DNA from: Pseudobdellovibrionaceae bacterium | GTDB lineage: Bacteria > Bdellovibrionota > Bdellovibrionia > Bdellovibrionales > Bdellovibrionaceae | Reading direction: 5' to 3' | DNA: 64,000 nucleotides | Assembly: GCA_019637955.1 (NCBI GenBank) | Contig: JAHBUS010000003.1 | Span: 310,001 to 374,000, forward strand | Shown here: positions 3,122 to 50,826 of the stretch, piece by piece | Layout of the letters: every line of letters begins with the position of its first letter | Numbering within the stretch: position 1 is the first letter of the stretch | Notes under the pieces: model-generated | Seen by the model: only the letters and a program-made list of their open reading frames with translations | The model's database searches: none | Told to the model about the DNA's origin: nothing | Position numbers and translations under genes: made by a program

Positions 3122-3345
3122 GTGTGCGGAGCTTGCCTCCTGGTGGAGTCCTGGCGGCATCCTGGTCGCTCGGGGACTGCGGGATCTGCTCCTGATTGCT
3201 CGTCGACTGACTCGCTGGTCGCAGCTCCCGCGTAGACAGCTTCTTGTTCTCCGGACAATCGCTTACTTGTCCACGATTACGTGGACGCCTCAACAGTTCC
3301 GCGGCTCCTGCCGCTGCACCTATGTGCCTCGGGTGTACCTCGGCT
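3122..3345 (+). repeat. Hairpin-rich dispersed repeat, cluster R2
   Basis: This cluster begins 3 bp after the HicB-like stop. It carries CCTCCTGG/TGGTCGC boxes with enclosing stems, then two hairpin pairs: TAGACAGCTTC...GTCCACG-ATTA-CGTGGAC (second stem at 3269-3286), and CAACAGTTCCGCGGC...TGCACCTATGTGCC ending at 3345. It has the same plus-strand orientation as all other clusters. No gene is supported between 3346 and 3436. Confidence 0.8.
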
Positions 3346-6998: not shown

Positions 6999-7090
6999 GC
7001 ACTAGGCTTGCACAAATTGCTTATTTTGGAAACAAATTTGCGGTTGCCTTGATCCAGAAGCTTGCCGAAACATCGATCGACAGATCGAAA

Positions 7091-7242
7091 GCGCTCCTGC
7101 GCGGGGAGTAGCGGCTCCTGCCGCGGGGTCGGAGACGGTGCTCGCTCCTGATGGGAGCTCTACGATCTCCCGGTCGCTCGCACCGCCTCAACAGTTCCGC
7201 GCCTCTGGCGCTGCACCTATGTGCCTCGGGCATACCTCGGCT
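7091..7242 (+). repeat. Hairpin-rich dispersed repeat, cluster R3
   Basis: One large hairpin unit (GGTGC...GCACC enclosing GGGAG...CTCCC between CTCCTGAT and CGGTCGCT boxes), then one hairpin pair, CAACAGTTCC-GCGCC-TCT-GGCGC-TGCACCTATGT plus GCCTCGG...CCTCGGC. It is nearly identical to the first half of R4, which suggests a recent copying event. It sits 26 bp from the 3' end of the minus-strand hydrolase gene. Confidence 0.8.
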
Positions 7243-7918: not shown

Positions 7919-8087
7919 ATTGTTTATATATGTCGAATGCTCGCGACTGTCATCAAGATCGAAACTATCAAGGCAGTATTCTTCCGGTCGGTCGTGTATA
8001 GTTGAAGACTGATAAACTGATCGGGGGGATTCGGCAAAGCGAGGAGTAGGTGTGGTGCTAGTTCCTAGGGGGCTTGGTTGATCGATG

Positions 8088-8490
8088 GCGCTCATGCGCG
8101 GGGAGAGAGGCGGCTCCTGTCGCTGGATTCGGAAGGCGCTGCTCGCTCCTGATGGGGAGCTCTGCGATCTCCCGGTCGCTCGCACCGCCTCAACAGTTCC
8201 GCGCCTCTGGCGCTGCACCTATGTGCCTCGGGCGTACCTCGGCGGATTGCGGGATCTGCTTCAGATGGCTCGTCGACTGACTCGCTGGTCGGGGCTTTGC
8301 GTGGATGGCCTCTGGAGACTCGGACGATGTCCTCATCGGTCGTCCATCCACGCTTTGACAGTTCCGCGCCTCCGGCGCTGCACCTACATGTGCGCGAGTA
8401 CGGGCACGCGTAGACAGCTCTTTGCCCTCCGGGCAACCGCTTACTTGCCGAGGGTTACCTCGGCGCTTACATGTACACGGGGTGTGGACG
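8088..8490 (+). repeat. Hairpin-rich dispersed repeat, cluster R4
   Basis: The most regular large cluster. It contains an R3-like unit, then GGGATCTGC-type and GCGTGGATGG-type large hairpins; the latter has a perfect 10-bp outer stem (8299-8308 with 8344-8353). Two hairpin pairs follow, the last with GCCGAGG-GTTA-CCTCGGC (8447-8464). It ends with a partial unit at about 8490. Open frames that cross it are repeat translations, not genes. Confidence 0.82.
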
Positions 8491-8574
8491 CTGGACCGTG
8501 CGCTTGACTCCTGGCGAGCGCACAGAGACCATTTTCTTAGGCAATGATGCCGAAGATTTATGAGGAGCAATTCC

Positions 8575-8652
8575 ATGGCTAAGAAAGCTGCAAAAAAAGC
8601 GACGAAGAAAGCTGCTAAGAAGACCACTAAAAAAGCGACTAAGAAGAAGTAG
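8575..8652 (+). CDS. 25-residue Lys/Ala/Thr-rich basic peptide
   Basis: A GAGGAG ribosome site stands 8 nt before the ATG, and the coding region ends 8 bp before a strong terminator, so this is a real small gene. The product is a repeat of (A/T)(A/T)KK units from end to end, with 13 Lys in 25 residues. This composition matches the basic tails of histone H1-like and AlgP-like DNA-binding proteins, so binding to nucleic acid is the likely role. A partial second copy of its 3' end lies at 8810-8848, beyond the repeat R5. Confidence 0.7.
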   Translation: MAKKAAKKATKKAAKKTTKKATKKK

Positions 8653-8660
8653 TTTGAATT

Positions 8661-8694
8661 GAGGGAGCGAGTTTACACCGCTCCCTCTGTTTTT
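8661..8694 (+). terminator. Rho-independent terminator of the Lys-rich peptide gene
   Basis: A perfect 9-bp stem (GAGGGAGCG, 8661-8669, with CGCTCCCTC, 8679-8687) is followed by TGTTTTT. A decayed version (GAGGGATCG...CACCGCTC) follows the duplicated tail near 8855-8880, so gene end and terminator were copied together. Confidence 0.85.
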
Positions 8695-8700
8695 GGTATC

Positions 8701-8811
8701 TGGCGGAGTTTGCCTCATGGCTCACGCTTTGCGCTCGCTGATCGTCAACCTCCGCGTTGACAGTTCCAGGCCTCTGGCCTTCCGCTTACATCCCTCAGCT
8801 GCGTTCGGGAA
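8701..8811 (+). repeat. Hairpin-rich dispersed repeat, cluster R5
   Basis: A single unit: outer stem GGCGGAGTTTG with CAACCTCCGC (one mismatch), CCTCATGG box, inner hairpin around GCGCTCG, then TTGACAGTTCC-AGGCC-TCT-GGCCT-TCCGCTTACAT and a weak last hairpin. It lies exactly between the Lys-rich gene plus terminator and a second copy of that gene's 3' end. Confidence 0.78.
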
Positions 8812-8848
8812 GAAGACCACTAAAAAAGCGGCGACTAAGAAGAAGTAG
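8810..8848 (+). pseudogene. Duplicated 3' end of the Lys-rich peptide gene
   Basis: Twelve codons encoding KKTTKKAATKKK plus stop repeat the end of the gene at 8575-8652. There is one in-frame extra codon (GCG), and similarity continues through the stop into the terminator region. There is no start codon or ribosome site, so it is a remnant. It begins directly where R5 ends. Confidence 0.7.
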
Positions 8849-8938
8849 TTCGAAGCGAGGGATCGAGGCGGCACCGCTCAACCCGGTTCTTCCAGCTTTC
8901 TATGGCATCACACGCTTCCGATGCCTCAATGTCTTAAG

Positions 8939-18708: not shown

Positions 18709-18945
18709 ATGGCAGGAAAAAGCGTTAGCGGCGAAGAATCAAAGTATCTGAAGAAAGTCGGAGCCAAAATCCGATCCTTAAGAACAAGCAAAGGCTGGAC
18801 TCTCGAGCAGGTCGAGGAGCATGGCTGGAACAACTGGCAGCATCTCCAAAAGATCGAGTCGGGAAAGAATATCACTCTCGTAACGCTGAAGCGAGTTGCT
18901 GCGCTTTATAAGACGACCCCGGGTAAGATTCTCGAAGATCTTTAG
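18709..18945 (+). CDS. XRE-family helix-turn-helix regulator
   Basis: A 78-residue DNA-binding protein. The helix-turn-helix spans about residues 12-65 (KKVGAKIRSLRTSKGWTLEQ, NWQHLQKIESGKNITLVTLKRVAALY). The start is placed at ATG 18709, where the family normally begins; an open frame continues to 18673. A direct repeat TATCGTGCTT occurs twice upstream (18665-18674 and 18681-18690) and may be its own operator. Repeat R7 follows 3 bp after the stop codon. Confidence 0.7.
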   Translation: MAGKSVSGEESKYLKKVGAKIRSLRTSKGWTLEQVEEHGWNNWQHLQKIESGKNITLVTLKRVAALYKTTPGKILEDL

Positions 18946-18947
18946 GG

Positions 18948-19154
18948 ACTGCGGGGCTTGCTCCTGTGGGAGTCCTGGCGGCCTCCTGGACAGCTTCGGG
19001 CCTTTGCCCTGCGCCTACCTCTGGCGAGTACGCCAATGCTCGCTCAGCGCGGGATCTGCTCTTGATGGCTCGTCACTGACTCGCTGGTCGCAGCTCCCGC
19101 GTAGACAGCTTACGTCCTCCGGACGATCGCTTACTTGTCCATGATTACATGGAC
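18948..19154 (+). repeat. Hairpin-rich dispersed repeat, cluster R7
   Basis: Two units: one ending in ACAGCTTC-GGGCC-TTT-GCCCT-GCGCCTACCT-CTGGCG-AGTA-CGCCA, and one with the GGGATCTGC...GCAGCTCCC stem followed by TAGACAGCTTACGTCCTCCGGACG and GTCCATG-ATTA-CATGGAC, ending at 19154. It begins 3 bp after the XRE gene stop. Confidence 0.8.
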
Positions 19155-20613: not shown

Positions 20614-20862
20614 GTGGGAGCGTTTAAGCAAGGCGAGATCGACGAAGTTGATTCGGATTATATTGATCCTAACCAACTGAAGTTGATACCGGATGAAGGG
20701 GCGGAGTCTCGTTCGATGGCTCCGACTGCGTCCTCGCAGTCACTCGACTCCGCCTTGACAGCTTTGGACGTCTCGTCCTTCGCCTACATGCCTCGGAGTA
20801 CCTCGGCGAAGCATATTCGGTATATTGAGGAGTTTCTCTCGAAGAGATTGAAAGTCGGGTAG
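20614..20862 (+). CDS. Small protein with a repeat unit inserted in frame
   Basis: An 82-residue frame with a strong AGGAGG site 5 nt before its GTG. Residues 1-29 are acidic and unlike the repeat (GAFKQGEIDEVDSDYIDPNQ); residues of about 30-65 are the translation of repeat R8; the last 17 (KHIRYIEEFLSKRLKVG) are again ordinary sequence. A similar C-terminus (EEFLAKWLTVD plus stop) is found after cluster R9. The original protein was probably about 45 residues. Whether the enlarged product is made is unknown. Confidence 0.5.
   Translation: MGAFKQGEIDEVDSDYIDPNQLKLIPDEGAESRSMAPTASSQSLDSALTALDVSSFAYMPRSTSAKHIRYIEEFLSKRLKVG
20699..20808 (+). repeat. Hairpin-rich dispersed repeat, unit R8, inside an ORF
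   Basis: A full unit with outer stem GGCGGAGTC...GACTCCGCC (about 20700-20754), a perfect inner hairpin GACTGCG-TCCT-CGCAGTC, then TTGACAGCTTT, GGACG-TCTC-GTCC, TTCGCCTACAT and GCCTCGG-AGTA-CCTCGGC. It contains no stop codon in the frame of the gene at 20614-20862. Confidence 0.8.
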
Positions 20863-21182
20863 CGGAGGTTGCCTCCTGGGGGCTCCGCTGCGCGTTCGCG
20901 GTCGTTCCGGATTGCGGGATCTGCTCCTGGCTGCTCGTCGCTGACTCGCTGGTCGCAGCTTTGCGTGGATGGCCTCTGGAGACTCGGACGATGTCCTCAT
21001 CGGTCGTCCATCCACGCCTTGACAGTTCCGCGCCTCTGGCGCTGCACCTACATGTGCGCGAGTACGCGCACGCGTTGACAGCTCTGTGCCCTCCGGGCGC
21101 TCGCTTACTTGTCCATGAGTACATGGACGGTTGGCAGTTCTGGGCCTCTGGCCCTCCGCTTACATGTCTCGCGTCGCTCGAC
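20862..21182 (+). repeat. Hairpin-rich dispersed repeat, cluster R9
   Basis: Starts at the stop codon of the 20614 gene. It has the large units GCGGAGGTTG..., GGGATCTGC... and GCGTGGATGG...CCATCCACGC, then three hairpin pairs in tandem. The clearest are GTGCGCG-AGTA-CGCGCAC (21054-21071) and GTCCATG-AGTA-CATGGAC (21111-21128). It shares a long, nearly identical central stretch with R4 and R13. Confidence 0.82.
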
Positions 21183-27448: not shown

Positions 27449-27907
27449 GTGGACTCAAGCTTTAAGACGCTAAGACGTAGGCAACTAGATGAGCAATTTG
27501 GGAAAACTGATCCCATCGAAATGCCCAGAGATGGTTGGGTTTACGAGATTCGTAGTGCACTTGGTATGTCGATGGAAGATTTGGGAAGACGCCTTGGTGT
27601 AATCAAGCAGAGAATCGGAAAATTAGAAAAATCTGAGGTTCAGGGTAATGTGACTCTGCATAGCCTGCAGGCGGCAGCTGAGGCTATGGATTGTGATTTT
27701 GTTTATTATTTTCGTCCAAAAAAATCACTTCAGTCATCGGTACTGAAAAATGCGATCAGAGCTGCTGAAATTGAAGTTGATAAATTAAATCGAAATATGG
27801 CCCTAGAGAATCAGGGGTTGTCTAAGAAAAAGATAAAAGAACTCAAAGAAGAGTTGGCGTCTGATTTTGTTGCTTACAATGACCGGCGAATTTGGAAAAC
27901 GGAATGA
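27449..27907 (+). CDS. Mobile mystery protein A (XRE antitoxin-like)
   Basis: A 152-residue protein preceded by AGGAG. The helix-turn-helix is at about residues 28-75 (RDGWVYEIRSALGMSMEDLG then RRLGVIKQRIGKLEKSEVQGNVTLHSLQAAAEAMDCDFVY), the pattern of TIGR02612. In this family it is paired with a Fic protein and is thought to repress the operon and counteract the partner. The C-terminal helix (KKIKELKEELASDFVAYNDRRIW) may contact the partner. Its stop overlaps the next start by ATGA. The three upstream operators support autoregulation. Confidence 0.85.
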   Translation: MDSSFKTLRRRQLDEQFGKTDPIEMPRDGWVYEIRSALGMSMEDLGRRLGVIKQRIGKLEKSEVQGNVTLHSLQAAAEAMDCDFVYYFRPKKSLQSSVLKNAIRAAEIEVDKLNRNMALENQGLSKKKIKELKEELASDFVAYNDRRIWKTE

Positions 27908-28488
27908 CGTTTCAGTCCGCTAGGGGAGCAACGCCTTTAACTGAAGAGGATCTAAGGGACCTTATCCCCAATTTAACAACTCAAAAGCAACTTGACGAAT
28001 TTGAAGCGGAGAATATCTTAAGAGGCCAGCTATGGGCCCGAAAAAGTCGAGTACTGCAAACCGAACTTTTATCTGTATCTGGGATATGTGTTCTTCATAA
28101 AAGAATGTTTGATCAAACCTGGCGATGGGCTGGCGACCTGCGCTTGCGGGCGCTCACAACAATTGGCGTCGCTCCACATCTGATACAGCCTGATCTCGGC
28201 AACTTATTTAACGACGTCAGGTTTTGGATCGATAACAAAATATATTCCGAGGATGAAATCGCAATTCGATTCAGTCACAGGCTCGTACAGATTCACCCAT
28301 TTCGAAATGGAAATGGGCGTCACTCGCGAATCGCAGCTGACTTATTGGCAGTTCAACTGGGAAAATCCGAGTTTGCTTGGGGGCGTGAGATTCCGGAAAA
28401 CGAAAGACGCGATCGATACATTGAGGCATTAAAAGCCGCAGATGGATCAATGGATGTCTCCGAGCTTACCGACTTCGCTAGAAACTAA
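27904..28488 (+). CDS. Mobile mystery protein B, Fic-domain protein
   Basis: A 194-residue protein with the Fic active-site motif HPFRNGNGRHSR at about residues 131-142: His for catalysis, the anion-hole N-G-N-G-R, and the upstream flap (LTTIGVAPHLIQPDL). The family is TIGR02613, an adenylyl- or similar transferase that modifies protein side chains. The ATG at 27904 overlaps the antitoxin-like gene by 4 nt and replaces the longer frame from 27892. An inhibitory helix is not evident in the protein itself, so the upstream partner probably restrains it. Confidence 0.87.
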   Translation: MTFQSARGATPLTEEDLRDLIPNLTTQKQLDEFEAENILRGQLWARKSRVLQTELLSVSGICVLHKRMFDQTWRWAGDLRLRALTTIGVAPHLIQPDLGNLFNDVRFWIDNKIYSEDEIAIRFSHRLVQIHPFRNGNGRHSRIAADLLAVQLGKSEFAWGREIPENERRDRYIEALKAADGSMDVSELTDFARN

Positions 28489-28505: not shown

Positions 28506-28610
28506 CTACAGAATCAGCACGTTACAGCCTGCCATGCGGAGCAAGATCGTAAGTCCAATGGCGATAAGGATGCTAGCGAAGAATGCGCGCCAGCCGAGGC
28601 CGATAATCAT
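28506..28610 (-). CDS. 34-residue single-span membrane micro-protein, copy 1
   Basis: A 34-codon ORF encoding a hydrophobic helix: start MIIGLGWRAFFASILIAIG, then a short LTILLRMAGC and NVLIL end. A second copy lies at 42329-42433. Of 34 codons ten differ, nine of them synonymously and one L/F, and similarity stops at the ORF boundaries, so protein-level selection is very likely. No good ribosome site is visible, and an in-frame TAG lies 4 codons upstream of the ATG. It is antisense to and 17 bp beyond the end of the Fic gene. Confidence 0.65.
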   Translation of the reverse strand: MIIGLGWRAFFASILIAIGLTILLRMAGCNVLIL

Positions 28611-28633
28611 GAGGGCAAGCTAGTTTCAAGGAT

Positions 28634-28663
28634 TTGGGAAATCAATCTGATTTCCCAATTTTC
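28634..28663. terminator. Bidirectional terminator
   Basis: An 11-bp perfect stem (TTGGGAAATCA...TGATTTCCCAA) with an ATC loop, followed by TTTTCTT on the plus strand and AATCC on the other. It can end the Fic transcript from the left and the 28668-28997 transcript from the right. Confidence 0.75.
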
Positions 28664-29683: not shown

Positions 29684-29823
29684 AGTTGAATCATGCTTTT
29701 CGTGTTTAATTTTGTCATTCGCCTCGGTGCTATAAAGATTTTTAGTGGCGTTACTCTCAACTTAGATCCAGGCCTTCAGTCATGGACCAGGGAAGAGGGT
29801 GTCTTTCTAAATGGACTTGGAAA

Positions 29824-30354
29824 GCGGAGCTAGCCTCATGGTGGCTCCGCTAGGCGTTCGCGGTCGTCTAGCTCCGCCTAGACAGCTCCGGTTCGTCCCG
29901 ACCTGCGCTTACTTGTCCCTCAGCACATGGAACGTTGACAGTTCCGCGATTCTGGCGCTGCACCTACATGCCTCACTGGCGTTCGGCGGTGGAAGTGCCT
30001 GGGGCGGATGCCGGCCAACTCTCCTAACAGATCGAATGCGGAGTTTGCTGCGAGGATTGCCTCATGGAGACTCGAAGGACGTCCTCGTCGGTCTTGCGCG
30101 TAGTTCGCTCCTTCTTGGAGTCCTGACGGCCTCTTGGTCGGCTTCGGGGCTTTGCCCTGCGCCTTCATCTGGCGTTTACGTCAGTGGTTGTTCACTCCGC
30201 TTTCACAGCTATGAGCTTCCGGCTCGCCGCTTAGATGTCCACGATTACATGGACTCTTTGACAGCTTCGTGCCTCCGGCACGGCGCCTACATCTGGCGAG
30301 TACGCCAGCACTGGTGGCTCCGGGCTGCCGGTTACGGTCCAGGATTACCTGGAC
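29824..30354 (+). repeat. Hairpin-rich dispersed repeat, cluster R11 (largest)
   Basis: About 530 bp with five or six units. The first has a perfect 10-bp outer stem, GCGGAGCTAG (29824-29833) with CTAGCTCCGC (29868-29877). Later hairpin pairs include ATGTCCACG-ATTA-CATGGAC, CTGGCG-AGTA-CGCCAG and the final GTCCAGG-ATTA-CCTGGAC (30337-30354). Several units are degenerate, so this cluster may be older than R4, R9 and R13. Confidence 0.8.
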
Positions 30355-41372: not shown

Positions 41373-41517
41373 ATCCGTTTGCAAAAGCGGTCACTTTTTC
41401 CAAAAATATTCAAAGTGAGTAAACCGAAAAGCGCTAAGTTGAACGCGCGCCTGGTCTCAGCTTTGCTATCGATTTGATCATTGAATTCAAGTTTTGAATT
41501 TTTCATGGAGGAAACAC

Positions 41518-42312
41518 GTGAAATCGAAGATTGCTCTGCTTATCGGGATGCTTGTTCTCTCGGCCGCGACCAGCGCCGCCGCAAAAACCGTTTTGATCTC
41601 GGACGTTGATGACACGGTTAAACTTGCCTACGCTTTTGGCTCGGCCTATGGCGCTCAGTATTTTAAGGACACCAAATCAAGATTTACGGGCATGAGCGAA
41701 GTCTATGACCTCATTACTCATGATAATCTCGATGTGAAGGTCTACTACGTTTCTCTTGCTCCGACGTATCTCATGGAACGTTTGCACGGAAAGTTTTTGA
41801 GAAACGGTGCGTTTCCTATTGGGACCTATATTGGCCGAACGAACCTACCATCAGAAACACATAAGCTTGAAACAATCAGATCCATCCTTCGCAGTGAAAG
41901 ACCGAGCCGAGTCATCCTGGTTGGTGACGACGGGCAGGCGGACGCTGCCGTTTACCGTCAAGTCTCTGCAGAGCCTGAGTTTGCGGGGATCATCTTTGAT
42001 CAGTTCATCCACATTGTGTCTTCACTCAAAGAAGCCAATGGCCAAAACAAAGTCCAAGGCGCGCAAGTCGGGTTTGTCACCTCGTATGAGTTTGCTCTTG
42101 AACTAAACGCCCGAAAGCTCATTCAGGACCGAAGTATGAAGTACGTGTCAGATCACATCTTGCCTGAGATTCTGATTGAAGCTCCGGGATCTGATGAGAA
42201 CGAGGAGACCAATCAGGTGGCGTTTCCGTACTTTATGGACTGCAAAGCCATCAATTGGAGATGGAATGTTCCGGGCCTGAATGAAAAGGTTCGGGGATTC
42301 TGTAAGTTCTAG
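41518..42312 (+). CDS. DUF2183 (App1-type) phosphatidate phosphatase-like secreted protein
   Basis: A 264-residue protein from GTG 41518, which has GGAGGAAACAC upstream; the frame from 41494 is not needed. A signal peptide of about 22 residues is followed by ISDVDDTVK, the catalytic DxDDT of the App1/DUF2183 phosphatases of the HAD type, and later LVGDDGQAD. Eukaryotic App1 acts on phosphatidate. The gene has its own 145-bp spacer after dgkA, so it may be transcribed separately. Together with its neighbours it suggests processing of phospholipid-derived phosphatidate. Confidence 0.8.
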   Translation: MKSKIALLIGMLVLSAATSAAAKTVLISDVDDTVKLAYAFGSAYGAQYFKDTKSRFTGMSEVYDLITHDNLDVKVYYVSLAPTYLMERLHGKFLRNGAFPIGTYIGRTNLPSETHKLETIRSILRSERPSRVILVGDDGQADAAVYRQVSAEPEFAGIIFDQFIHIVSSLKEANGQNKVQGAQVGFVTSYEFALELNARKLIQDRSMKYVSDHILPEILIEAPGSDENEETNQVAFPYFMDCKAINWRWNVPGLNEKVRGFCKF

Positions 42313-42328: not shown

Positions 42329-42433
42329 TCACAAAATCAAAACATTACATCCTGCCATGCGAAGCAAGATCGTAAGTCCGATGGCGATAAGGATGCTGGC
42401 GAAGAATGCGCGCCAGCCGAAGCCGATGATCAT
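42329..42433 (-). CDS. 34-residue single-span membrane micro-protein, copy 2
   Basis: A second copy of the ORF at 28506-28610, with MIIGFGWRAFFASILIAIG and the same LTILLRMAGC-NVLIL end. The only residue change is F for L at position 5; the stop is TGA instead of TAG. It stands 16 bp beyond the end of a plus-strand gene, in the same antisense arrangement as copy 1. Unlike copy 1 the frame stays open upstream to 42538, but only the 34-codon part is conserved. There is no clear ribosome site. Confidence 0.65.
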   Translation of the reverse strand: MIIGFGWRAFFASILIAIGLTILLRMAGCNVLIL

Positions 42434-42478
42434 GGGAAGAGTTGTAGCGGGATCTTTAGTCTCGTGCAAGTGGGGGAT

Positions 42479-42801
42479 GCGGGAGCTGTCTTCCGGCTTC
42501 GCGCTTTGCGCTCTCAAGTCGCCTGCTCCCGCGTTCACAGCTCTGGGCCGCTGGCCCGACGCTTAGATGTCTCGGGATACCTCGACACTGATCGAAAGCG
42601 CTCCGCGATGGTGCGGGTGGGGAGCGGAGTTTGCGTCGAGGATTGCCTCCTGGAGACTCGGACGATGTCTTCATCGTCGTCAATCCTCGCTTTGACAGTT
42701 CCGCGCCTCTGGCGCTGCACCGACATGTGCGCGAGTACGCGCACGCGTTGACAGCTTTGTGCCTTCCGGGCACCCGCTTAGAAGTCCAAGAATACGTGGA
42801 C
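42479..42801 (+). repeat. Hairpin-rich dispersed repeat, cluster R12
   Basis: Begins with GCGGGAGC...GCTCCCGC, then the unit with outer stem GAGGATTG (42638-42645) and CAATCCTC (42681-42688), a base-paired replacement of the GTGGATGG/CCATCCAC stem in R4 and R9. Three hairpin pairs follow; the last ends GTCCAAG-AATA-CGTGGAC at 42801, abutting the stop of the lipoprotein gene. Confidence 0.82.
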
Positions 42802-43146: not shown

Positions 43147-43449
43147 CTAGTGATGACTTCCTGAGCCAGAGCTCGGCATGAAGTTTTGAATCATTGAGGA
43201 GAGGTCGTTGACGATCTTATCCGCTGAACTTTGGTCGCTGACTTCACGCATGCACGAAGCGACATGGTCCTTGGCAACGACGCCTCGGCCTTCGGAGATG
43301 AGATTCATGATCGCTGTGAGCCTTTTCACGATCTCAACGCAGGATTGCTGATCTTGAATCATGGTATCTACAGTGGAAAGGTTCCCAATAGCAGCGCGGA
43401 TCAAGTTTCGAACCTCGTTCGTGCGGTGGTGTTTGTGATGATTACTCAC
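43147..43449 (-). CDS. CsoR/RcnR-family metal-sensing repressor
   Basis: A 100-residue all-helical protein. The HHKHHRTNEVRNLIRAAIGNL start, the CVEIVKRLTAIMNLISEGR helix with a conserved Cys, and the late His-containing helix match the CsoR/RcnR/FrmR family, in which Cys/His ligands bind Cu, Ni, Co or Zn. GTG 43449 is used: AAGGAG is 5 nt upstream and it overlaps the exporter stop as GTGA. The His tail (GSGSHH) may also bind metal. It probably represses the operon in which it lies. Confidence 0.82.
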   Translation of the reverse strand: MSNHHKHHRTNEVRNLIRAAIGNLSTVDTMIQDQQSCVEIVKRLTAIMNLISEGRGVVAKDHVASCMREVSDQSSADKIVNDLSSMIQNFMPSSGSGSHH

Positions 43450-44759
43450 GAAATCTCCTTGATCTTCTGAATGTGATTTTCTTGCCTGGTCCAAATGCCG
43501 TAGATGATGAAGGCCGCGACAACGCTTGCGACCGAAATCAGAACCAAGTATTTAAAATCACTCGTTTCGGAAAGAGCTGAACCCATACCGAAGAGCACAA
43601 GTGTTGCGATGGCCGTTAAAGAGCCCGCAAAGCCATTCACCTCGCCGCGAACTCTCGGAGGAATTCCCAACTGACGGATTTGCATTTCACCCATGCTAAA
43701 GCCATAAAGCCCAATTCGCGATAGCAGCACGAAGAGCAAAAAGCCAATCTGGCCGACTCGTGAATCCATTAAAAAGAATAAGAGAGCGGCGATCACCATT
43801 GCGGTTTGCGAGAACAAGAACCGACCTGAACCCAAAACAAGTCCGTATTTCTTAATCACGACCGGAAATGCAACCGTGGCCGCCAGTCCAAAGATCGCTC
43901 CAGCGCCACGAAAGATGCCGATTTCCCATTCTGGAAGCTTCCAGGCATCTTTGAGGTAGGCGGTCAAAAGAACGCCGTGAGGACTTAAGACTGAAAGCCA
44001 TAAGAACGAATAGGCCGTGACGACCATAGCCACGGGCTCTTTGGCGAACTGTTTCCAGCCAAGCGCAAACTTTTGAAAGGCGTTGAGTTTAGCCGATTCT
44101 TCAATTTTTGGGGGCTTACTCAGGAGATCGGGTCGGTCGTGATAGATAGATCTTAGAAGCAGGTACTCAGGAATAAATGAAACTGTATTCCACAAAGCGA
44201 TCAAGCTAAATCCAATCAGCGCAGAGTTCGCATCTCCAACGAGGAGCAGGAGTCCTGCGAGGATCGGAGCGCCGACTTCGGTCGCGAGATCAACTTGCCG
44301 AAGGTGGCTGTTAAAAGCGCCGAGTTGATCTGCATTTAGACTTGAAGGAACAAGGTCGTTGGCGATCGCAATATCCATAAAGCTTGATCCTAGTGATGCT
44401 AGGACTCCGCCGAAGACCATGACGACAAACGAGGCATAAGCGGGAATTCCGCCCAGGAGTAGCTCGCGTGCACCAAAGAGCGAAAGCCCCAGAACGGCGC
44501 CGAAGCCTATCAGTACGCCCGCTAGTTGCAAAAAGATTCCAAGTTTTGTTACCCGATAGCGGTCCATTTCGTCAATGAGGCGCGTGAGCCGGGGCAAAAA
44601 GAAAACAAGGGCCAATCGGACAAGGAAATAATAAAGAGCCGCGATTCTGAGCTCGCCCGGCAAAATGGCAAGAAAGGTGAGGGGAACCGCAAAATCCCAA
44701 GCTTGATCACCGGACCTCGTCAGAAATCGACCCCAGAGTAAACGGGAAGTTAAAGTCAT
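43446..44759 (-). CDS. Ferroportin-like metal exporter
   Basis: A 437-residue protein with about 12 hydrophobic segments. The N-terminal segment GRFLTRSGDQAWDFAVPLTFL matches the start of ferroportins (SLC40), including the metal-site Asp in GDQAWDFAV. A homologue from Bdellovibrio bacteriovorus is the best-studied bacterial ferroportin. The protein should export Fe(II) or similar ions from the cytoplasm. It overlaps the TolC-type gene by ATGA and the repressor by GTGA, so it is a fixed part of the metal operon. The alternative is an ordinary MFS transporter. Confidence 0.78.
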   Translation of the reverse strand: MTLTSRLLWGRFLTRSGDQAWDFAVPLTFLAILPGELRIAALYYFLVRLALVFFLPRLTRLIDEMDRYRVTKLGIFLQLAGVLIGFGAVLGLSLFGARELLLGGIPAYASFVVMVFGGVLASLGSSFMDIAIANDLVPSSLNADQLGAFNSHLRQVDLATEVGAPILAGLLLLVGDANSALIGFSLIALWNTVSFIPEYLLLRSIYHDRPDLLSKPPKIEESAKLNAFQKFALGWKQFAKEPVAMVVTAYSFLWLSVLSPHGVLLTAYLKDAWKLPEWEIGIFRGAGAIFGLAATVAFPVVIKKYGLVLGSGRFLFSQTAMVIAALLFFLMDSRVGQIGFLLFVLLSRIGLYGFSMGEMQIRQLGIPPRVRGEVNGFAGSLTAIATLVLFGMGSALSETSDFKYLVLISVASVVAAFIIYGIWTRQENHIQKIKEIS

Positions 44760-46048
44760 CGAGAGCTCTCTTCAGCGGCAAGTAGGCTTTCAAGCGCCGC
44801 ACGTCCCATGGCCAAATCGCGCTGCAATTCCAAGAAGCGTTCTTGAAACTCAAAGAGTTGCTTAGAGGCGGACATCAGATCAGGTCCATTTTTAATCCCC
44901 CGCGCGTACTCGCTCTGCGTGAGCCGCAAAAATTCTCGGGCTTTGGAGAGGCTCTTTTCATTTTCCTTGATCATGACGCTCGTGAGTTCAAGGTCGTGAC
45001 GGATTTCTTGATCAAGAGCTTTGACCTCACGGATTTTCTTCGAAGTTCTAAATTCAGCGGCTTTCGCGGCTAGGCGTTTGGAGCGAGCTTCGGAAAACCC
45101 GTCGAGCCCTTCTCCGAGGTCAAGGCTGACCGCGATACCGGCATAAGTTTCAGTTTGTGAGTTTAGTGCGCGGGCGTATTCATCGCTTAACGAAGGCACG
45201 CCGTGTTTAGCGTAAACATCGAGCTTGGGCTGCCACCAAGTTGAGGCTTGATCAGCTCTCAGAGATTCAATTTTTTGCACGGATTTAAGGTTTTGAACTT
45301 CGAGGTTGTTTTGAATGTCCTTTAAGGCGAGTCCCGGCTGCTCATTTAACGAAAATTCCCCCGCAAAAATCAGTCCCTCATGTGAATCCATACCGAGGAG
45401 TGTCGCGAGCCGATTTCTGGCCAGATCGAGTTTTAATTCCAGTGCTCGAATGGATTGCTCAAGCAGCGTGCGATTAAGCTCAAACTGTAAAGCATCGGCG
45501 TTGGTTGCGACACCGGCGCCTGAGCGCCTGCGGGCGGACTGCAAGTTTTCATCATTCTTCTTAAGTTCGTCTTGTTTGAGAGCGATTAACTTTTGGTAGG
45601 TCAAGCCTTGCCAAAATGCGAGGCGTGCGTCTCGAAGTTCCTTCTGGTAAATTAGTCCGGAGTCGAGCCGAGCGGCGCTGAGAGTCTCTTGGCGAACCGA
45701 TTCTTCTTGGGCATCTTTTGATCCCCGGTAAAGGTTGATCGAAGCACCGACGCTCCAATAGCCTTTATTTTCGGCCGTGGATGATCCCTCGCGAAAGCTT
45801 TCGCTCCCGGAGACAGCCGAAAGTCGCGGCAAGAACGACCGGCCGAGATGGCCGGTTCTTTCTTGCTGAGACTCGATATTCACGCGAGCTGCTTTTAAGC
45901 TCTCATTGTTTTTTTGAATAAGCGCGCCAAGATCCTCGAATTTGACGTGGACCGGAGCGGCATTTTGGTGAAGAGCCGCATTTTGAGCCTGTGACCAACT
46001 GCCAAAGACTATCAACGAAATCAAAAAGCCAAATCGCGTGAATTTCAT
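44756..46048 (-). CDS. TolC-family outer-membrane channel (CusC-type)
   Basis: A 430-residue protein with a signal peptide (KFTRFGFLISLIVFGSWSQAQ) and the long helical hairpins of TolC-type proteins (e.g. LKAARVNIESQQERTGHLG, GVATNADALQFELNRTLLEQSI). It is located in an operon with a heavy-metal RND pump, so it should form the outer-membrane exit for metal ions. It follows a small periplasmic protein after 12 bp. No lipoprotein box is present. An adaptor protein is absent here too. Confidence 0.86.
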   Translation of the reverse strand: MKFTRFGFLISLIVFGSWSQAQNAALHQNAAPVHVKFEDLGALIQKNNESLKAARVNIESQQERTGHLGRSFLPRLSAVSGSESFREGSSTAENKGYWSVGASINLYRGSKDAQEESVRQETLSAARLDSGLIYQKELRDARLAFWQGLTYQKLIALKQDELKKNDENLQSARRRSGAGVATNADALQFELNRTLLEQSIRALELKLDLARNRLATLLGMDSHEGLIFAGEFSLNEQPGLALKDIQNNLEVQNLKSVQKIESLRADQASTWWQPKLDVYAKHGVPSLSDEYARALNSQTETYAGIAVSLDLGEGLDGFSEARSKRLAAKAAEFRTSKKIREVKALDQEIRHDLELTSVMIKENEKSLSKAREFLRLTQSEYARGIKNGPDLMSASKQLFEFQERFLELQRDLAMGRAALESLLAAEESSR

Positions 46049-46060
46049 TTTATACCTCTC

Positions 46061-46507
46061 TTAGTCTAAGTTATCGAAAGCCGTCAGCAGCTCACGATTT
46101 CCCTCTTTAACGGTAACGTCGATATCGTAGGGCTTGCCTTCGATTTTGGGCATTTTACCCGTGAAGGCATTGTCTTTGAGTTCAAGTGCAAAGCCTGAAT
46201 CTTTGTATTTGCCTTTCACCTTTGCCGCCAATGTTGCCGATCCTTTTGTATCAAAAGACTTCATGTCCAAAGGCACCATCTTCTGATCGTAAAAATAGAC
46301 TCGAATCGTGCCGTCAGCGGAGCGGACCAGCTCAGCTTTGTGCACAAGTGCTGCGGCTGAACCTTTCTTAGCGTCTGCTTTCGCGACGACGCCCGAAACC
46401 AGGCCACCGTACTTGCCGGTATCTGAAAGCTTAGGACCGTGGCCTTCATCGTGTGCCATGGCCGTACTTGTGAGCATCAAGGCTGCGGCCAGAATCATTT
46501 TTGTCAT
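46061..46507 (-). CDS. Small periplasmic protein of a metal RND system
   Basis: A 148-residue protein starting at ATG 46507, which overlaps the pump stop by 4 nt. A signal peptide is followed by HDEGHGPKLSDTGKYGG, an N-terminal His/Glu cluster that may bind metal. The rest is beta-rich (VYFYDQKMVPLDMKSFDTKG, YDIDVTVKEG). It takes the place that the adaptor or CusF-like chaperone occupies in other Cus/Czc operons, but it is too small for a normal adaptor. A metal chaperone or a reduced adaptor is the likely role. Confidence 0.65.
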   Translation of the reverse strand: MTKMILAAALMLTSTAMAHDEGHGPKLSDTGKYGGLVSGVVAKADAKKGSAAALVHKAELVRSADGTIRVYFYDQKMVPLDMKSFDTKGSATLAAKVKGKYKDSGFALELKDNAFTGKMPKIEGKPYDIDVTVKEGNRELLTAFDNLD

Positions 46508-49500
46508 TTCCATTCTCCCTTTTCATGTTGTTGTTCTCGGTTCAGGTAATTCTGAACCGCTTGTTTTCCAAATTTTAAAAAGACGGTTGGGGTGACGATC
46601 AAATCGAGCAAGGTCGAAGAGATCAGGCCGCCCACAATCACAACCGCGACAGGGTAAAGAATTTCTTTGCCAGGCTCTCCTTGGGAGAGGAGCAAAGGAA
46701 TCAACGCCAAGGCTGCTGTTGAGGCCGTCATAAGAACAGGAACTAAGCGCTCAAGTGAACCTCGTACGACCATTTGACGGTCAAACCTCTCGCCCTCTTC
46801 TTTCATCAGATGCAGATAATGACTGATCAAAAGAATACCGTTACGTGTGGCTATACCGCAAAGGGTGATGAACGCGACCAGCGTTGCGACCGAAAGCGTC
46901 CTCTCGGTGATGTAGATTGCGATGATACTCCCGATGAGCGCGAGTGGAACGTTGAGCATGACTTGAAAGCTCAATATCCATGACTTGAAGTGCACATACA
47001 GGACGAGCAGAATTCCGAGCATCGAGAGAATCCCGAGCCACAAAATGCGCTGAGTAGCCGTTTGCTGGCTCTCGAATTGACCACCCAACTTGATAAAGTA
47101 ACCTTCGGGCAGCTGGACTTTTTCAGAAATTCGTTTCTGGATTTCGCCCACCACGCTTCCGAGATCGCGTCCGTGGGTGTTGGCCGAGATCACGATGCGT
47201 CTTTGCATGTCTTCACGGTTAATCATGTTGGGACCCGTGCCGGGATAGACACTAGAGACTTCCCCAAGGCGCACGCCCTGTCCCGTTGGCATGAATTTCA
47301 CAAGCGTTTGCTCGATCTTCTCGGGCGTCTCGCGTGAGGAGTCGTCTAGACGCATGAACACCTCGTGCATGCGCTGATTCTCGAGAAACTGCGTGACAGT
47401 CTCACCATTAAGCGCAATTTCAAGATTCTCTGCCAGGGTTCCGCTACGAATCCCGTACTTTGCGCTCATTTCGCGGTCGATGGCGATTTTGAGCTGAGGT
47501 ATGAGAACCAAAGGCTCCGTCTGAAGATCGACGACGCCATCGATGTCTTTCATCACATCTTGGATCTGACCACCAAAACGGCGGAGTTCGCTCAAATCAT
47601 ACCCAAAGACTTTCACTGCGATTTGGGCGCGAACACCCGAAAGCAGGTGATCCAGCCGATGGCTAATGGGCTGACCAAGATTCACGTAGACATCGCCAGT
47701 TTTCTCGATTCGCTCACGAATCTCTTGAAGGACGATTTCTCGTTTTCGTCCCTCAGGCTTAAAGTCGACGTCGATTTCGTGCCAATGAACGCCTTCGGCA
47801 TGCTCGTCCATTTCAGCTCGGCCCGTTCTGCGTACAGTCGATTTGACTTCGGGAACCGAAAGAATCGCTTCTTCAATTTTTTTACCGAGGGCGTCTGAGG
47901 CGGGGAGCGAAATTCCAGGCGCGCCCGCAACGCCAATGGTCGCAGTACCTTCATTAAACTCCGGCAAAAAGTTTCGACCCATGAGAGGCAAAAGCATCAG
48001 GCTCAGGACAAGGATCACAGCGGCCCCAGCAAGAACGCTTTTGGGGTGAGGCAGGGTCCAATCAAGTACTTTATGAGCTATGGCCTTGAGGCCGCTCACG
48101 AGCCTACCTTCTTTCTCCTCATGAACTGCTTTAGATTGCGGAAGCAGGTAGGAGCAAAGGATGGGTGTCACGGTCAAAGAAACGAACAGCGAGGCAATGA
48201 TCGAGATGATATACGCAATCCCGAGTGGCACGAAAAGCCGACCCTCAATGCCTCCTAGAGCAAACAGCGGGAGGAAGACCAAGACCACGATAATCGTTGA
48301 AAGAACGATCGAGTTTCGAACTTCGCTCGAAGCTTCGAAGATGACTCGCATGAAGCCTTTGGAGTTTCCTTTTACTCTGTTTTCGCGCAGGCGCCTAAAC
48401 ACGTTTTCAACATCCACGATGGCATCATCGACAAGCTCGCCAATGGCAATCGCAAGGCCGCCAAGAGTCATCGTGTTGATCCCAAGTCCGAAGACGTGGA
48501 ACACAATCACCGTGACCAGAAGGCTCATGGGGATGGCGACAAGTGTGATGGCTGTTGTGCGCCAGTTCATGAGGAATAAGAAAAGAATGATGGCAACCAT
48601 GATAATGCCATCCCGAAGCGCTTCTTCGACGTTACCGACGGCAGCCTCAATGAAGTGTGACTGCTTAAAGAGGTCCGTCTCGAGATGAACTCCAGCCGGA
48701 AGCCCTTTCTTCATCTGTTCGATTTCATTTTCAACCGCTTTTGTGAGATCAATCGTGCTTGCGCTAGGCTGTTTTTGAATGGTCAGGATGACCGAGTGCT
48801 TGGCGTTAATACTTCCTTCGCCGCGTTTAGCTTTGGCTCCGATACGGACTTCCGCCACATCCTTAACGAGAACGGGGTTCCCGAGGTGAAGACCGACGAG
48901 CGAATTCTCGATGTCCTCAAGGCTTGCCACGCGGCCGAGCGGGCGAATCAGGTACTCTTTGTCCGAGACATTGATAAAGCCGCCGGTCGTGTTCTCGCTG
49001 ATTTCCGAAAGCGCGCGTTTAAGGTCCTCCAAAGAGACTGCTCTCTTTTGCAACTTTTCGCTCGAGACGAGAATCTGGTACTGTTTGACTTCGCCGCCCA
49101 TAACGACGACCTGGCTAATTCCCGGGATTGTCATAAGCCTGGGGCGAAGAGTCCAGTCTGCAAGGGTGCGAAGATCCATAGGCGTGACGCTCGCATCGGG
49201 ACTCGTGACACCGATAAACTGAATCTCGCCCATGATTGATGTGACGGGGCCCATGATTGGCTGAAGGCCCGGAGGGAGCTTGCCCTCAAGAAGCTGTAAG
49301 CGCTCGGCAATAAGCTGGCGGTTTCTAAAGATTTCGGTGCCCCAATCAAACTCGACATAAATAATCGAGATCCCGATACCGCTACTGGATCGCAGCCGCA
49401 AAACTCCAGGTGTTCCATTGAGCGTAGATTCAATGGGAAGAGTGACAAGACTTTCCACCTCTTCAGGCGCAAGTCCGTGTGCTTCGGTGAGAACCGTGAC

Positions 49501-49638
49501 AGTGGGACGGTTAAGGTTAGGAAAGACATCTACGGGTAGGCCCGGTAAGAGCCAGGCTCCGTACACGCAAATAGCAAGGGCCAAAAGACCCACGATCAGA
49601 CGCCTTTTCAATGAAAGGCGAATCATTAAATCGAGCAT
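46504..49638 (-). CDS. Heavy-metal RND efflux pump (CusA/CzcA family)
   Basis: A 1044-residue protein, the full length of the family, with ATG 49638 and GAGGAATT upstream. Heavy-metal type signatures are seen: VDVFPNLNRPTVTVLTEAHGL, RSSSGIGISIIYVEFDWGT, and helix IV with GLAIAIGELVDDAIVDVENVFRR (Asp/Glu of the proton path). It should drive metal ions from the periplasm or cytoplasm out through the TolC-type channel at 44756. A usual adaptor (CusB/CzcB) gene is missing from the operon. Confidence 0.9.
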   Translation of the reverse strand: MLDLMIRLSLKRRLIVGLLALAICVYGAWLLPGLPVDVFPNLNRPTVTVLTEAHGLAPEEVESLVTLPIESTLNGTPGVLRLRSSSGIGISIIYVEFDWGTEIFRNRQLIAERLQLLEGKLPPGLQPIMGPVTSIMGEIQFIGVTSPDASVTPMDLRTLADWTLRPRLMTIPGISQVVVMGGEVKQYQILVSSEKLQKRAVSLEDLKRALSEISENTTGGFINVSDKEYLIRPLGRVASLEDIENSLVGLHLGNPVLVKDVAEVRIGAKAKRGEGSINAKHSVILTIQKQPSASTIDLTKAVENEIEQMKKGLPAGVHLETDLFKQSHFIEAAVGNVEEALRDGIIMVAIILFLFLMNWRTTAITLVAIPMSLLVTVIVFHVFGLGINTMTLGGLAIAIGELVDDAIVDVENVFRRLRENRVKGNSKGFMRVIFEASSEVRNSIVLSTIIVVLVFLPLFALGGIEGRLFVPLGIAYIISIIASLFVSLTVTPILCSYLLPQSKAVHEEKEGRLVSGLKAIAHKVLDWTLPHPKSVLAGAAVILVLSLMLLPLMGRNFLPEFNEGTATIGVAGAPGISLPASDALGKKIEEAILSVPEVKSTVRRTGRAEMDEHAEGVHWHEIDVDFKPEGRKREIVLQEIRERIEKTGDVYVNLGQPISHRLDHLLSGVRAQIAVKVFGYDLSELRRFGGQIQDVMKDIDGVVDLQTEPLVLIPQLKIAIDREMSAKYGIRSGTLAENLEIALNGETVTQFLENQRMHEVFMRLDDSSRETPEKIEQTLVKFMPTGQGVRLGEVSSVYPGTGPNMINREDMQRRIVISANTHGRDLGSVVGEIQKRISEKVQLPEGYFIKLGGQFESQQTATQRILWLGILSMLGILLVLYVHFKSWILSFQVMLNVPLALIGSIIAIYITERTLSVATLVAFITLCGIATRNGILLISHYLHLMKEEGERFDRQMVVRGSLERLVPVLMTASTAALALIPLLLSQGEPGKEILYPVAVVIVGGLISSTLLDLIVTPTVFLKFGKQAVQNYLNREQQHEKGEWK

Positions 49639-50112: not shown

Positions 50113-50300
50113 TGTTCTCACATCTTCATTATTTGCATGTTCAAAACTAGAAAACAAGTGGCTATCTAGGCTTGCCGCTAAAAGCCAACAAAGATCTCAC
50201 AAAGAATCATCATCTAAGGCGGTCTTGTAATGATCGAGAAATTAGAACGAAGAAAAATTTAGATCAATGGAAGTGATTGAGGGGAGTGGGGAGCGGAGTT

Positions 50301-50723
50301 CGCGGCGAGGATTGCCTAACGGAGACTCGGACGATGTCCTCATCGGTTGGCGCTCCTCGCTTTGACAGCTTCGAGCCTCCGTCTCTGCGCCTACATCTGG
50401 CGATTACGCCAGTCCTGGTTGCTCGCGCACCGCTCGCGGTCGTTCCGGATTGCGGGAGCTGCTCCTGATTGCTCGTCGCTGACTTCGCTGGTCGCAGCTT
50501 TGCGTGTATGGCCTCTGGAGACTCGGACGATGTCCTCATCGGTCGTCCATCCTCGCTTTGACAGTTCCGCGCCTCCGGCGCTGCACCTACATGTGCGCGA
50601 GTACGCGCACGCGTTGACAGCTCTGTGCCCTCCGGGCACCCGCTTACTTGTCCATGAGTACATGGACCGTTCACAGCTTTGGCGCCTCCGGGCCGCCGCT
50701 TACATGTCCACGATTACGTGGAC
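50301..50723 (+). repeat. Hairpin-rich dispersed repeat, cluster R13
   Basis: Starts with a GCGAGGATTG-type unit, then a GGGAGCTGC...GCAGC unit and the conserved GACTCGGACGATGTCC unit, nearly identical to R4 and R9. Three hairpin pairs in tandem follow: GTGCGCG-AGTA-CGCGCAC, GTCCATG-AGTA-CATGGAC and GTCCACG-ATTA-CGTGGAC (ends 50723). After it a 9-bp inverted repeat AGGAAAGCC...GGCTTTCCT (50774-50801) precedes the SRAP gene. Confidence 0.82.
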
Positions 50724-50826
50724 ACTGGGATCTTACACCTGCCTTTCTATAGCTCTTTTCGGAAAAAGGTCGGAGGAAAGCCTACTTGGCGTGGCTTTCC
50801 TTGGTCACACCCGATATTCTTTGAGG

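Follow-up and report, generated by a model that had tools for sequence, protein, structure and literature searches.

AcrZ, MgtS, and KdpF are small regulatory membrane proteins that are conserved together with their partner complex, and these proteins and the type I toxins are the described systems closest to the peptide reported here. A type I toxin, as defined in the accessible parts of PMC8309996 and PMC10537873, is a hydrophobic peptide under 60 aa with one transmembrane helix. The accessible text of PMC8309996 further presents these toxins as small hydrophobic helices of great sequence diversity, records cysteines in HokB, ShoB, AapA1, and SprA1, and places the membrane-associated type I toxins so far only in Proteobacteria and Firmicutes.

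The window, that is, the whole stretch of 64,000 nucleotides that was analysed, comes from a Pseudobdellovibrionaceae bacterium and holds two open reading frames of 34 codons (copies A and B) that encode nearly the same peptide. Bdellovibrio was long counted among the Proteobacteria. No publication on such a peptide was found in the part of the Bdellovibrio literature within our reach, with most subscription journals lying outside it. Annotation routinely overlooks genes of this size; in the present case, comparison of sequences is enough by itself to make it nearly certain that the peptide is useful in a lineage of predatory bacteria. The features discussed below are the following:

28506..28610, minus strand: micro-ORF copy A, 34 aa MIIGLGWRAFFASILIAIGLTILLRMAGCNVLIL, stop TAG
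42329..42433, minus strand: micro-ORF copy B, 34 aa MIIGFGWRAFFASILIAIGLTILLRMAGCNVLIL, stop TGA
28506..28538, minus strand: C-terminal segment R[ML]AGC[NH]VLIL of copy A, codons 25-34 plus stop, from the four-sequence alignment and DNA pattern
42329..42361, minus strand: C-terminal segment R[ML]AGC[NH]VLIL of copy B, codons 25-34 plus stop, from the four-sequence alignment and DNA pattern
28634..28658, plus strand: terminator-like hairpin beyond the start of copy A; one found, 0.5 expected in shuffles

Both copies encode MIIG[L/F]GWRAFFASILIAIGLTILLRMAGCNVLIL, the fifth codon specifying L in A but F in B. The equal length given in the preliminary description is correct, each copy being 34 aa plus a stop codon on the minus strand. 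Read on the plus strand, 28506-28610 gives another frame, which is not conserved. The count of ten differing sense codons, nine synonymous and one L/F, also stands; the stop codons differ as well (TAG/TGA), which brings the total to eleven codons and 12 nucleotide differences. The peptide had been said to end in RMAGC, a string which is present, but the true C-terminus is RMAGCNVLIL. Likewise, the similarity is bounded by start and stop as described: in a self-BLAST of the window, 28508-28611 pairs with 42331-42434 at 90% and extends no further, the likeness starting at the ATG (with one matching base 5' of it) and stopping within the stop codon, and the flanks (300 nt on the 5' side and 200 nt on the 3' side) yield alignment scores no better than those of shuffles.

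Relatives of the peptide

A search of the phylum for homologues had been set beforehand as the test that could refute the proposal, and it produced two more homologues of 34 aa with the frame intact. The first came from a search of 99 genomes (our own included), which gave one clear further homologue, in Bdellovibrio sp. LF-bin-127 (JACMNA010000010.1; genome G044, locus C), 68% identical. A profile search of all 368 phylum genomes added one more, 62% identical, in genome G352 from another family of the phylum outside the class (locus D). The genome studied here (G000, 3.77 Mb) carries copies A and B only. With a profile built from all four sequences, the members score at E <= 3.1e-20 and the next best match in the 368 genomes at 6.8e-4, and a DNA pattern of AGC[NH]V followed by three codons with T in the middle and a stop codon has exactly four matches in those genomes, all of them members; a reversed control of the last-eight-codons-plus-stop pattern has none. 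The peptide had been called conserved, which holds in that homologues exist, yet the family comprises four places in only 3 of the 368 phylum genomes, and its distribution is patchy even within a genus, as genome G351, of the same genus as G352, is without it. Judged from these sequence comparisons, this is a real, patchy family of stand-alone micro-genes.

Below the four members, the profile matches run into noise from 6.8e-4 onward, with weak matches in 79 of the 368 genomes at E <= 0.3. Most of the 13 weak places that we inspected fall within long open frames or run antisense to them. A possible outlying relative, in genome G253 (L040), is a 50-aa ORF MKFWEFWREWGRNFFANKHVKELIKISIYGLIFIVLLLLEMAGCNVLSDP at L086:4064-4216 on the minus strand, which ends EMAGCNVLSDP, carries the AGCNVL motif near its C-terminal end, and scores at E 0.007-0.012 per genome; it has no convincing relative in 129 family genomes, the best being in G215 at E 0.0066, roughly translated, and it was not counted as a member. 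A 34-aa ORF MYGNGWRTFLAFFLGAVVLLVILYQQGVFEHTGF in genome G252 (L069; L087:5700-5804, plus strand) lies between two larger genes, starts MYGNGWRTF, and resembles the N-terminal half of the family at E 0.029; it too was without a convincing relative among the 129 family genomes and was not counted.

Wider searches were made with the C-terminal motif and with copy B. A degenerate MAGCNVL[IM] pattern, run on one genome per species across 84,980 species, found ten stretches, one of which is a member (L018, the locus C contig), the other nine being other proteins or unrelated short frames. A tblastn search of plasmids with copy B retrieved no homologue, and the same query against phages retrieved nine Staphylococcus phage records at E = 8 only, which we judged to be chance. 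On viral contigs, the stricter motif pattern had no matches, and the looser pattern had eight, all of them antisense frames of one 164-codon open frame. No family match was obtained from Pfam (A and B; E <= 10), NCBIfam (B), PHROGs and PADLOC (all four), or PDB sequences (profile).

Coding selection and the history of the two copies

All four ORFs are exactly 34 codons long, and 18 of the 34 residues are invariant. Nine of these invariant residues are among the final eleven, the two exceptions there being M26/L and N30/H, and in the last ten residues, R[ML]AGC[NH]VLIL, variation is found almost only at synonymous sites. Of the six frames compared, only frame +0 is free of internal stops while holding amino-acid identity at 63-97% for every pair; in the remaining five, the pairs apart from A-B drop to 9-47%. 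Minus frame 1 is also stop-free in all four sequences, with an identity outside A-B of 38-47%, well below that of the coding frame. For A-B, random placement of ten sense-codon changes gave one or fewer amino-acid changes in 30 of 20,000 simulations, the expected number of such changes being 5.3, and for A-C, A-D, B-C, B-D, and C-D the corresponding counts among 20,000 were 0, 0, 0, 2, and 0. By the NG86 method, A versus B has a dN of 0.013 and a dS of 0.50, a ratio of about 0.026, behind which stands a single amino-acid change. Third-position G+C is 0.68-0.71 in A and B, whose surroundings have 50% GC, and 0.47 in C, where the surroundings have 42%, thus tracking the host as expected for a resident gene; at locus D, the value of 0.53 against 55% around it is little informative. 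The selection on the peptide put forward in the preliminary description is thereby borne out by homologues of exactly 34 codons in which frame +0 alone is conserved, and these comparisons indicate that the ORFs are almost certainly coding and under selection.

The sharp bounds of the A/B similarity, together with the position of both copies 16-17 nt from a convergent stop codon, could also be those of a conserved DNA or RNA element (a repeat, an attachment site, or a structured RNA) that contains an open frame only by chance. However, the changes fall mainly on the third codon positions of a single frame (for A-C, 28 of 47), the remaining frames carry stops or lose identity, and of the 13 base pairs predicted from the ORF alignment, none shows paired substitutions that preserve it. 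We consider such an element scarcely credible, the reading being largely refuted by the frame conservation and the lack of compensatory pairs. A stretch of 521 nt made up of copy B and its 5' side has a somewhat better predicted fold than shuffled versions do (z -2.2), a score which may come from the adjacent repeat array; the z for copy A is -1.7.

The lack of similarity in the flanks was also set against simulated decay. Had the duplication included the flanks and neutral drift followed at p = 0.365 (dS about 0.5), the flanks would be expected to remain alignable: similarity as low as that observed arose in 5-8 of 1000 simulations for 60 nt and in none of 1000 for 200 nt. At p = 0.5, the count rose to 41-166 of 1000, which leaves room for such a history. 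Either the ORF alone was shared, then, or the synonymous distance is underestimated through codon bias.

Gene neighbourhoods and expression signals

On its downstream side, copy A faces the 3' end of the gene at 27892-28488 on the plus strand, part of a convergent pair that ends 17 nt away. The pair, at 27449-28488, encodes mobile mystery proteins A and B (TIGR02612, HTH; TIGR02613, Fic domain) and is possibly toxin-antitoxin-like. Upstream of copy A by 57 nt and on the same strand lies a gene for a 118-aa protein without a family match. It is a conjecture that the transcript of the Fic gene reaches the terminator-like hairpin beyond copy A, in which case its 3'-terminal part would run antisense over that copy. 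Copy B also has a convergent gene on the plus strand, with an APP1-phosphatase domain (41494-42312), ending 16 nt away, and 368 nt upstream is a gene for a 113-aa lipoprotein-like protein, with a repeat array in between. Further upstream of copy B, a metal-sensitive repressor, a ferroportin-like transporter, and an AcrB-type RND pump are encoded in a row at 43147-49638 on the minus strand, likely a metal efflux cluster. At locus C, a 139-aa lipoprotein-like gene lies 22 nt upstream, and the contig ends 427 nt beyond. At locus D, the next gene downstream in the same orientation has a LON-substrate domain; the gap is about 76 nt if that gene starts at the ATG of MKELEISLF. The four loci have no flank sequence in common and no recurring neighbour, which speaks against two readings: a leader peptide at A and B, and a subunit whose gene sits next to that of its partner.

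A leader or arrest peptide would stall the ribosome through its conserved C-terminus and thereby control a downstream gene; this would suit the most conserved segment abutting the stop codon and the same-strand gene downstream at locus D. What lies downstream of A and B, however, is the 3' ends of convergent plus-strand genes, with nothing there to control; gene order contradicts a leader function for these two copies, and we regard it as very improbable for the family.

Shortly 5' of the ATG at locus C is a Shine-Dalgarno-like AGGAGA, and no clear Shine-Dalgarno sequence was seen at A, B, or D, so that translation of A and B is uncertain and their expression may be weak or controlled. With a crude consensus, no sigma-70-like promoter was found near A or B on either strand, and Rfam gave no match in the window.

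The window also contains palindrome-rich, structured intergenic repeat arrays, with units such as GTTGACAGTTCCGCGCC...GGCGCTGCACCTACATGTGCGCGAGTACGCGCACGCG and nearly all in one orientation, at about 1182-1476, 3126-3345, 7083-7242, 8080-8879, 18944-19154, 20856-21168, 29823-30354, 42499-42801, and 50286-50727. With one such array as query, the genome studied here yielded 19 matches, 17 of them on the contig that holds the window (C8) and 15 of these within the window. A mosaic REP-like or attC-like element is a possible identity for these arrays.

Membrane prediction, possible function, and known systems

The short hydrophobic helix of the preliminary description agrees with the models. AlphaFold, given three of the sequences, predicted one helix at residues 2-33 (mean pLDDT 80, weaker at both ends), although a lone helix is to be expected for such a peptide anyway. 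In A, C, and D, GRAVY is 1.65-2.01 and the maximum 16-residue hydropathy 2.1-3.0, the peak lying at residues 9-24. Going by these predictions, the peptide is very probably a single membrane-spanning helix, the topology of which is left ambiguous by its charges, a single Arg/Lys (position 8) and a single Arg (position 25).

The [ML]AGC near the C-terminus (LAGC in D and MAGC in A, B, and C), with nearly invariant residues after the Cys, calls to mind a lipobox, as of a tiny lipoprotein or lipopeptide signal which signal peptidase II would cut before Cys29, releasing a lipidated C-[NH]-V-L-I-L. Against this, an Arg directly precedes [ML]AGC in all four sequences, none has K/R within the first seven residues, and the PROSITE PS00013 rule matches none of the four while matching the lipoprotein-like N-terminus from locus C that served as a control. 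We hold this reading to be improbable.

The explanation that we tentatively prefer, giving it somewhat less than an even chance even if coding and a membrane helix are granted, is that of a membrane-active, type-I-toxin-like peptide. Each copy would be a stand-alone gene, presumably translated into a 34-residue peptide that inserts with a single pass, and whose middle (about residues 9-24) varies while staying hydrophobic. Conservation points to the C-terminal R[ML]AGC[NH]VLIL tail with a free carboxyl end as the working part, and the peptide would act in trans, as the four loci have no common neighbour. Our guess is that the peptide, when abundant, would insert in the cytoplasmic membrane and slow the cell, possibly dimerising through Cys29, and that its expression would be kept low by an antisense RNA or poor initiation. 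In favour of such a peptide are its size, its hydrophobicity, its cysteine, the presence of two copies at separate places in one genome, the patchy distribution, and the orphan sites. Where a genome has several copies of one type I system, these often have regulatory flanks in common. Speaking against it, A and B are without conserved flanks, and the promoter, Rfam, and flank comparisons at the loci revealed no antitoxin RNA.

A short, strictly conserved motif at one helix end is also what would be expected of a protein-protein contact, and the polar or aromatic helix residues W7, S13, and R25 are invariant in all four sequences. The peptide may thus instead be a small regulatory membrane protein that binds or tunes a larger membrane protein (a transporter, sensor kinase, or protease) encoded elsewhere, and a partner acted on in trans requires no common neighbour. 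With the family absent from 365 of the 368 phylum genomes, however, a core complex is excluded as its partner, and no gene beside the four loci recurs as a candidate for that role. Such a regulator is a serious but doubtful possibility; placing the toxin-like peptide ahead of it is a guess, the regulator being nearly as likely.

A bolder proposal, and an unlikely one, is that of a new family of mobile stand-alone peptides in bacteria of the predatory lineage, with the ten-residue, hydrophobic, Cys-bearing C-terminal tail as its business end, acting either as a type I toxin with an unusual antitoxin RNA or as an exported signal peptide, and with the 50-aa ORF of G253 as an outlying member. The family is new but of an ordinary kind, and the exact ten-residue tail is pinpointed as a target for mutation. 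If the peptide is toxic, type I toxins would extend to Bdellovibrionota; if not, it would be one more orphan small membrane protein.

Compared with AcrZ, MgtS, and KdpF, the peptide is alike in its size, its single helix, and the possibility of trans action, and unlike in being restricted to 3 of 368 genomes without a constant neighbour. With AapA1 of Helicobacter pylori, as its sequence appears in the accessible part of PMC10537873, there is a likeness by eye, a W-[KR] near the helix start and a G-C-x-V near the C-terminus, but the spacing from W to GC is 11 residues in AapA1 and 21 in this family, and BLASTP gave no alignment between AapA1 and copy B at E <= 100. The same text reports that the C-terminal Lys-Arg of AapA1 is needed for toxicity, whereas all four members here end in VLIL. 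As for the PXXXGC motif of Fst/Ldr, given in the accessible text of PMC8309996, none of the four has a proline at that place before GC, and A and B have no Pfam match. Set against the type I toxins more broadly (AapA1, TisB, IbsC, ShoB, and Fst/Ldr), the peptide differs in that no antitoxin RNA was found, the flanks of the duplicates are not conserved, and there is no sequence similarity to the families tested. It resembles them in falling under 60 aa (34 aa), in being very hydrophobic (GRAVY as above), in its one predicted transmembrane helix (2-33), and in its occurrence in more than one copy at orphan positions.
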